Positions 13,193 to 16,100 of a stretch of DNA of 64,000 nucleotides are shown here, in pieces. The notes below the pieces were generated by a model. The model did not search any database, was not told the DNA's origin, and saw nothing but the letters and a program-made list of their open reading frames with translations. Numbering within the stretch: the stretch's first letter is position 1; every line of letters starts with the position of its first letter. The stretch lies in assembly GCF_000003815.2 (NCBI RefSeq), contig NC_049991.1, positions 3,041,282-3,105,281 of the forward strand, written 5' to 3'. The position numbers and the translations under genes are program-made. Source of the DNA: Branchiostoma floridae. Taxonomy: Eukaryota; Chordata; Leptocardii; Amphioxiformes; Branchiostomatidae.

Positions 13193-16100
13193 TTATGAAG
13201 CCAACCCTGCATCTTTGGCCATTCCGTAGAAGATACCTCTCGAAGCGATGAGATCTTGTGGGGAGTCAAACTCTGCAATTCTCCCAGCATCAAGAACAAG
13301 CACCCTGGATGGTAGGAAAAGTTTATGTTGTTACAAAGAAATTATATGTTAGAAAAGCGAGGTATGCTCACCTATGAAATGTTTCATCGCCTCAGATCTT
13401 TGAGGAACGTGACTTGGACATACAGGTACACTGGAATGGATTCTAAAGTAACTAAGGCCATGTTGATGTCATATGGATGACATGATGTGTGCTTTGGTCA
13501 GTCCTTGCCTTGTGATGTCCATGATAGTGTTGAGCCTGTGTGCGATGGTCAGTCCTTATCTTGTACTGTCCATGATAGTGTTGAGCCTGTGTGCTATGGT
13601 CAGTCCTTACCTTGTACTGTCCATGATAGTGTTGAGCCTGTGTGCGATGGTCAGTCCTTACCTTGTACTGTCCATGATAGTGTTGAGCCTAGCCTGTGTG
13701 CGATGGTCAGTCCTTACCTTGTACTGTCCATAATAGTGTTGAGCCTGTGTGCGATGGTCAGTCCTTACCTTGTACTGTCCATGATAGTGTTGAGCCTAGC
13801 CTGTGTGCGATGGTCAGTCCTTACCTTGTACTGTCCATAATAGTGTTGAGCCTGTGTGCGATGGTCAGTCCTTACCTTGTACTGTCCATGATAGTGTTGA
13901 GCCTAGCCTGTGTGCGATGGTCAGTCCTTACCTTGTACTGTCCATGATAGTGTTGAGCCTGTGTGCGATGGTCAGTCCTTACCTTGTACTGTCCATGATA
14001 GTGTTGAGCCTGTGTGTGATGGTCAGTCCTTACCTTGTACTGTCCATGATAGTGTTAAGCCTGTGTGCTATGGTCAGTCCTTACCTTGTACTGTCCATGA
14101 TAGTGTTGAGCCTGTGTGTGATGGTCAGTCCTTACCTTGTACTGTCCATGATAGTGTTGAGCCTATGTGCGATGGTCAGTTCTTACCTTGTACTGCCCAT
14201 GATAGTGTTGAGCCTGTGTGCGATGGCCAGTCCTTACCTTGTACTGTCCATGATAGTGTTGAGCCTGTGTGCGATGGTCAGTCCTTACCTTGTACTGTCC
14301 ATGATAGTGTTGAGCCTGTGTGTGATGGTCAGTCCTTACCTTGTACTGTCCGTGATGTTGAGCCTGTGTGTGATGGTCAGTCCTTACCTTGTACTGTCCA
14401 TGATAGTGTTGAGCCTGTGTGCGATGGTCAGTTCTTACCTTGTACTGCCCATGATAGTGTTGAGCCTGTGTGCGATGGTCAGTTCTTACCTTGTACTGTC
14501 CATGATAGTGTTGAGCCTGTGTGCGATGGTCAGTTCTTACCTTGTGCTGTCCATGATAGTGTTAAGCCTGTGTGCGATGGTCAGCACAGTGCAGTCAGCG
14601 AACTGTGTCCGGATGGTGGACTGGATCAGGTCGTCTGTCTCCAGATCCACGGCAGCTGTGGCCTCGTCCAGAACCAGGATCTTGGACTTCCTCAGCAAGG
14701 CACGAGCCAGGCACACCAGCTGTCTCTGACCAACACTGCAACAGACATAGTGTAAGCATTCACCAAAAAGCAGTTACTCAAGCACTGATGTTGGATTCCG
14801 GAAATGGTCAGACATTTCAGACACCATCTAATGTCTTTTGTTAGTGACATTGGAGAGATTTTGTAGGAGAGTTTTTATATCCTAACTATGAATTGATATG
14901 CAAAAGAGATCTAATAGAACAGGTTTATCATAAACTATGAATTAATATGCAAAATGGGGAGGAAGACAACTTTTTAATAGTCCATTGTCACTGACGAAAG
15001 ACATAGGATGTTGTCTGAAACGTCTGACCGTTTTCAAAATCATATCCAGTGGATTGAGTAACAGCTTCTTTGGTGTATCTTATTTCCTGGATGTCTAACC
15101 TTCATTGACGTAGTGTAAGCATTGTGCAAATATGTATCTGTTCTCATTTATGAATCTGTATTGCATAATTATTAACGTTCCGTATGAGGTGTCGCAACAC
15201 TAAGTAAAAGCTGCCAAGGATCATTGGTGTACACTTTTAACTTGATCCTTCGTCCTTGAAATCTTTACACTGGAAGAAAAAAAATTGCAACTGAAGATAA
15301 AAAGAAAAGAAACAACTAATCAAATTGTATTAGCGTTGCCTTAGATTATACAGTGTATGACCATATTTGCTTAGAAATTATTGCATATAGAGTCTCACCA
15401 TGTCATAAAATGATACTTCCATATACAGTATATGCTAGTTTTGATAGCAAATTTAGGTTCAGCATGTGCCCCAAACCCCAAGATATATTGAAATCTTTTT
15501 AAGTTTAGGCAGTATTTTATGGTTTTGCACGTTTGAGACCTCTAGTATCAGCTCACGTGGTGTTACTGTACAAGACTATGTATCCACATCTACTTACCAG
15601 AGGTTCTCTCCTCCCTCAGACACCTCATGCTCTAGCTGTGCCCCCAGCCCCATCACAAAGTCCTTCCCCATCCTTACCCGAGGTTCTCCCCTCCCTCAGA
15701 CACCTCGTGCTCTAGCTGTGCCCCCAGCCCCATCACAAAGTCCTTCCCCATCCTTACCTGAGGTTCTCTCCTCCCTCAGACACCTCGTGCTCTAGCTGTG
15801 CCCCCAGCCCCATCACAAAGTCCTTCCCCATCCTTACCTGAGGTTCTCTCCTCCCTCAGACACCTCGTGCTCTAGCTGTGCCCCCAGCCCCATCACAAAG
15901 TCCTTCCCCATCCTTACCTGAGGTTCTCTCCTCCCTCAGACACCTCGTGCTCTAGCTGTGCCCCCAGCCCCATGACAAAGTCCTTCCCCATCCTTACCTG
16001 AGGTTCTCTCCTCCCTCAGACACCTCATACTCTAGCTGTGCCCCCAGCCCCATCACAAAGTCCTTCCCCATCCTTACCTGAGGTTCTCTCCTCCCTCAGA

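Follow-up and report, generated by a model that had tools for sequence, protein, structure and literature searches.

The window (the whole 64,000-nucleotide stretch of Branchiostoma floridae DNA analyzed here) contains on its minus strand an MRP1/ABCC1-like gene, gene A, whose exons we placed via homology to its paralogs. The penultimate coding exon (14541..14735, minus strand; acceptor TTGCAG^T, donor AAG^GTAAGA) matches the Pfam family ABC_tran and carries what we take to be the signature, Walker B, D-loop, and H-loop (TIAHR) motifs, and the last coding exon (13193..13304, minus strand) ends in TAA. The 5′ splice site that follows the penultimate exon lies within a minisatellite with a 51-bp unit (13486..14588, minus strand), which comprises 21 units and a partial 22nd; Tandem Repeats Finder placed it at 13486-14584, with a period of 51, 21.3 copies, 93% match, and a score of 1860. 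According to the preliminary description of this DNA, the NBD2 H-loop exon of an ABCC gene has its end and donor repeated in tandem about 21 times, and this was borne out. Unit 1 (14532..14582, minus strand) combines the end of the coding exon, whose last 42 nt are its exonic part, with the donor that is most likely used (GT at 14540-14539), and units 2-21 are taken as intronic. A search of the 64-kb window against Rfam at the gathering threshold returned no matches.

The 21 units of gene A are mostly of one length (51 bp in 17 units, 56 bp in three, and 48 bp in one), and the exon/intron junction lies inside the unit, with 42 exonic nt followed in most units by GTAAG(A/G)ACT. The sequence GACC is found at 20 of the 21 unit starts and is preceded by CT at all 21. 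The unit boundaries thus fall in CTGACC, a sequence that is present in the exon as well as at 20/21 unit starts, which makes it likely that the array was born by short-homology duplication: CTGACC would have mediated the first duplication, and unequal exchange would then have expanded the array. The unit length does equal 17 codons, as was pointed out earlier, but the array does not form an open coding repeat, because the frame that continues from the exon meets a TAA within unit 1, at its donor, and 19 stops by the end of the array.

We searched the genome (513,431,437 bases in 431 contigs) with the protein sequence of exon 14541..14735 and obtained 47 matches, five of which, at 91-100% identity, define genes A-E. 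Paralog B (C13:3105222) extends across the right end of the window, paralog C is at C13:3135473, paralog D (C13:9748919) is on the opposite strand 6.7 Mb from A, and paralog E is at C6:21184683. Within this one assembly the 51-bp array occurs in the same register in A (21 units), B (11 units), and D (5 units), and is absent from C and E. With two units as the query, a DNA search returned 19 matches among the best candidates scored, all of them at paralogs A-E. The array of paralog B (63442..63985, minus strand) is followed by a last coding exon whose position (62843..62950, minus strand) is approximate and derived from homology. Neither this copy at the right end of the window nor the occurrence of the array in several paralogs figures in the preliminary description.

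When exon 14735-14541 is joined to 13304-13193, the first donor makes an in-frame junction (AG|G), and the product aligns without gaps to MRP1 over 102 amino acids (best PDB match 6uy0_A, E = 5e-57); judged by homology, the first copy of the unit therefore borders the true splice site and encodes the conserved protein end. The donor of the most distal unit is altered in each array (GGCAAG in A, GGTGTT in B, and GGTACG in D), four units of A are changed in length by -3 or +5 nt, and the 14 residues encoded by unit 1 are identical in A-E. On the basis of the normal NBD2 end obtained on joining, the TAA on read-through, the indels, the altered last donors, and the identical residues of unit 1, we assign unit 1 to the exon and the other units to the intron, with unit 1 most likely supplying the working donor. 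The remaining 20 copies, donors included, would leave with the intron, and the array, which is most likely without function in itself, would be tolerated because the 5′-most donor continues to define the exon. The spliceosome must choose among about 20 near-identical donors that close a catalytically essential exon, apparently leaving the protein intact, and the array thus offers a naturally occurring case in which to study how the first donor prevails.

The preceding exon of gene A (16558..16724, minus strand) also ends in a tandem array. This minisatellite (15593..16626, minus strand) has an 80-bp unit, lies over the donor of the exon, and consists of 13 units (12.9 copies according to Tandem Repeats Finder); its sequence is unrelated to that of the 51-bp array at the neighboring exon. 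The 80-bp array has 13 units in A, four in B, and seven in C, and is absent from D and E. In B, a CAC codon of coding unit 1 of this array is replaced by TAT (His to Tyr), and all 80 nt of the unit match an intronic unit of A (A 15593-16626; B L039:2332-2653), which in this one case points to exchange, in either direction, between coding and intronic copies. Gene E carries at another exon a donor array of 30 copies of a 36-bp unit (L048:9163-10000 and L047:1-247; C6:21179162-21180246). The unit, RLQQYAQTPAEV, is open in frame through the first 16 units, after which there is a 1-nt insertion, and use of later donors could add 12-residue repeats to the gene E protein, up to 16 units. In a more distant pair of ABC genes (L027 and L024/L028; C4:28.16 and 28.65 Mb), the H-loop exon has a 112-bp array over its donor, and the unit of that array starts within a few nucleotides of the codon at which the 51-bp unit starts. 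An 84-bp array in stretch L052 reads, by eye, as a C2H2 zinc-finger coding repeat.

Comparison of the paralogs suggests that the 51-bp array and its exon have moved between genes as a block. Outside the H-loop exon, A and D differ at 52.3% of third positions and A and E at 51.8% (1233 aligned nt in nine segments). In the penultimate exon, A and D differ at only 5/64 third positions, compared with 52.3% of 411 elsewhere (p = 1.3e-12), and we consider that the exon and array were probably copied between the genes. The corresponding control, A against E, gave 24/64 third positions in the penultimate exon versus 51.8% elsewhere (p = 0.043), so that the exon evolves somewhat more slowly at third positions than the rest, but the A-E difference is still far from that between A and D. 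The same contrast was seen at fourfold sites, where A and D differ at 3/34 in the penultimate exon and at 169/295 in 18 other segments (p = 2.6e-8); this count used 18 of 19 other segments, and segment 25067-24861 was left out as its match in D is short and due to chance. In a tree of the penultimate exon, A and D fell on one side and B, C, and E on the other (94% bootstrap support), and in a tree of the other segments D joined E with 100% support. At exon positions 12, 18, 135, and 159, A and D have a state in common that none of B, C, and E shows. Position 189 speaks against this pattern, since D there has the state of B and C and not that of A and E.

Interlocus gene conversion between paralogs leaves one exon far more alike than its neighbors and produces conflicting trees. 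The A-D exon has both properties: the tract is far more alike than its homologous flanks, and the trees conflict. It differs from typical cases in that the tract includes a minisatellite and is apparently confined to the exon and array. A blastn comparison of the introns that flank the tract in A and D found no match of at least 60 bp, and the similarity spans the interval from the start of the exon to the end of the array. Because the likeness begins at the exon start and the flanking introns are without a match, conversion would require a tract limited by homology, which is a point against it. The homolog in D of the exon with the 80-bp array lacks that array and is unconverted (4/13 and 3/6 fourfold differences). 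The exon and 51-bp array were thus probably copied together between gene A and gene D. The states common to A and D, together with the closeness of A to B and C otherwise, favor copying from A to D, which is the most likely direction. Gene D, 6.7 Mb away and inverted, would have received the exon and array by interlocus gene conversion, and we infer the molecular steps of this A-to-D event from the sequence comparisons.

The array of B looks chimeric. Units 1-8 are of the CAGGCTC type, as are most units of A and D, and units 9-11 are of the older CAGACTC type, which is the state of the exons of C and E; unit 1 of A itself reads CAGGCTT. The junction between the CAGGCTC and CAGACTC blocks coincides with unit 8, which is only 38 bp long. 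Units 2-7 of B are letter-identical to the commonest unit of A, and as third positions elsewhere differ by 17.5% between A and B, a 51/51 match would be expected by chance with a probability of about 5e-5. The proximal block of B would have been replaced by A-type units, and the pattern is read most simply if the array predates the CAGG state, which would later also have entered the coding unit of B.

The penultimate exon is also alike between A and the two nearer paralogs. A and B differ there at 2/34 fourfold sites, a modest effect (p = 0.04 for this exon alone and 0.011 when combined with the 80-bp-array exon; two segments of the latter exon were set apart and 17 others were used for comparison). 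A and C differ at the same number of sites (2/34, p = 0.049), and C has no 51-bp array. At the exon with the 80-bp array, where arrays are found in both A and C, the difference was not significantly low (2/26 versus 34/164, p = 0.18); the A-C counts used seven segments that have true homologs in the stretch compared. As the exon of C is as A-like as that of B yet has no array, exon homogenization and the presence of the array are not strictly linked: either arrays are not required for homogenization, or C has lost its array. The 80-nt identity between a coding unit of B and an intronic unit of A, and the arrival of the exon of D together with its array, would fit a more far-reaching reading that we regard as speculative and rather unlikely, namely that such arrays are recombination platforms whose intronic shadow copies form a reservoir that overwrites coding ends within and between genes. 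A link of this kind between arrays and gene conversion, if true, would offer a testable reason why some paralogous exons stay alike as their introns diverge.

Splice-junction repeats of this kind are already known as lancelet "mirage" minisatellites (Adh3, globins, TnC, and PGBD5), and those of Adh3 were reportedly described by Canestro in 2002. The Adh3 mirages have units of 10-72 bp and show somatic instability, as cited in a study of lancelet globins, in which BflGb6 and BflGb9 are described as carrying mirages and homogenization within globin clusters is noted (PMC3087553). The account of a mirage in lancelet PGBD5 cites the Adh and TnC cases, and reports that the copy number differs between two lancelet assemblies and that re-examined reads confirmed the repeats (PMC3902484). 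Regular splicing is reported or suggested to be undisturbed by mirages (PMC3087553; PMC3902484), although the globin account allows that the repeats could serve as cryptic sites, and proposes that mirages are starting material for intron gain via tandem duplication (PMC3087553), a process on which a link between splice-junction arrays and gene conversion would also bear.

The array of gene A resembles the published mirages in being a tandem repeat in their size range (approximately 10-160 bp) over an exon/intron boundary that keeps the splice signal in many units, in having a first copy that adjoins the real junction, as in PGBD5, and in its internal homogenization, as in globin BflGb6. It differs from the known cases in its 21 copies in an ABC transporter gene, in the occurrence of arrays at two adjacent exons of one gene, in the presence of the same array in three paralogs, and in the apparent transfer of exon and array between genes. 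Published accounts of mirages describe concerted evolution within clusters and, as far as they go, do not describe exchange between genes; the titles and abstract openings that we searched likewise held no description of exchange between mirages. The occurrence of the 51-bp array in paralogs B and D as well, with copying of exon plus array, is thus probably what is new here. In human segmental-duplication genes, minisatellites likewise alter the ends of exons and may bring cryptic splice sites into use, but those repeats are described as lengthening exons or introns or forming novel introns (PMC2812944), whereas the gene A protein appears unchanged. We put a probability of about 0.77 on the reading that the gene A repeat is a mirage array in which the first copy provides both the coding end and the working donor, the other copies being intronic, and that array and exon have been exchanged between paralogs, the array itself probably being functionless.

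Three other accounts of the array were weighed. In one, the units are used, whether as microexons of 27 nt that stay in frame and add LNTIMDSTR or as decoy donors with a regulatory effect on splicing of the last intron. In its favor, GGTAAG is present in 19/21 units of A and CACACAG in 20/21, the 27 nt from CACACAG to GTAAG preserve the frame, and the 36-bp donor array of gene E keeps an open frame through the first 16 of its 12-codon units. The microexon, which had been raised in the preliminary description with CACACAG as a weak acceptor, was not supported: only 8/17 positions upstream of CACACAG are pyrimidines, whereas the pyrimidine fraction at 16 acceptors of gene A averages 0.72 and is nowhere below 0.59 (16 of 19 exons, three having been left out as their boundaries are not clear). 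Units 2-21 carry indels and amino-acid changes, although the residues of unit 1 are constant in A-E, and two published accounts of lancelet mirages report or suggest that these are harmless to regular splicing, with the globin paper allowing cryptic use (PMC3087553; PMC3902484); we therefore regard use of the units as quite improbable. Simple vertical inheritance, in which the gene ancestral to A-D already had the array, C lost it, and the exon stays alike through constraint on synonymous sites, would account for the identical unit length and register in A, B, and D, for the mild extra conservation of the exon in the A-E control, and for the equally alike exon of C, which has no array. Against it, D and E are equally distant from A elsewhere (52.3% and 51.8%), but the same exon differs from that of A at 5/64 third positions in D and 24/64 in E; in addition, the commonest unit of A equals six intronic units of B over 51/51 nt in genes that differ by 17.5% elsewhere. 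This account is accordingly improbable. An artefact of assembly is highly improbable: tandem arrays are easily miscounted, and the PGBD5 copy number of lancelet does differ between two assemblies, but here three loci have differing flanks, copy numbers, and unit variants, and the PGBD5 repeats were reported as confirmed in re-examined reads (PMC3902484).

A different question is whether in this genome splice donors act as mutational hot spots where such duplications arise (for example, through transcription-linked breaks), so that separate events struck two adjacent exons; it bears on how the arrays originated and is compatible with the mirage explanation. In its favor are three unrelated donor arrays (51, 80, and 36 bp) in one gene family, together with the 112-bp array, the fourth, that the more distant gene pair on C4 has at its H-loop exon. 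In a placement test, 3/10 arrays in three genes cross a donor versus 0.51 expected (P = 0.0099), with rough body lengths and donor numbers of 18, 17, and 9 as input. Arrays with a donor-bearing unit, scored with a 5′ splice-site matrix, were also in excess in the window (5/10 versus 0.82 expected) and in the paralog stretches (7/18 versus 0.97 expected), with shared and split arrays counted. However, the placement test is post hoc, and P became 0.33 once the two arrays that had prompted the finding were removed. At 25 other ABC loci, 1/12 arrays had a donor-bearing unit versus 0.68 expected, and in five random 10-kb regions (from 160 drawn) 1/7 arrays had a strong donor versus 0.81 expected, the unit of that one array being 430 bp. 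No excess was found in these random regions, and we therefore claim none genome-wide. Selection that removes exon-only arrays could also yield the same pattern. The earlier argument that expansion at two adjacent exons is unlikely by chance unless donors are prone to it thus held as far as the presence of a second donor array is concerned, but proneness of donors is unproven, given the change in P from 0.0099 to 0.33 and the absence of an excess in the random regions, and we find it doubtful.

Other repeated structures lie nearby. Gene C, which is MRP1-like, contains a cluster of exon copies 35-55 kb to the right of the window (L055, L043, and L042; C13:3140811-3160707). Eleven homologous copies of a TMD2 exon run from 3160149 down to 3143316 and have 37-82% protein identity to the exon at 21356-21099 of the window. 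All 11 have an AG acceptor, a CAG^GT donor, and no internal stop, and they are equal in length except for one that is 3 nt shorter. The exon before the cluster (C13:3160492-3160707) and the exon that follows it (3140811-3140954) each occur once in the 29 kb searched. The cluster has the alternative-looking layout of mutually exclusive exons, and if the copies are mutually exclusive they could vary the substrate pocket. Drosophila MRP1 is said to have two variable internal exons, reportedly from work by Grailles in 2003.

Within the window, positions 53648-59447 are occupied by a satellite with a unit of approximately 215 bp (22 and 3.5 copies) that contains a run of N at 55102-55406, and a relative of this satellite on C4 (L027:2712-3174) is 84-88% identical. 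Inside the span of gene D on C13, L045:5082-7798 holds 17 copies of a 160-bp repeat with many CCCTAA telomere-like motifs.
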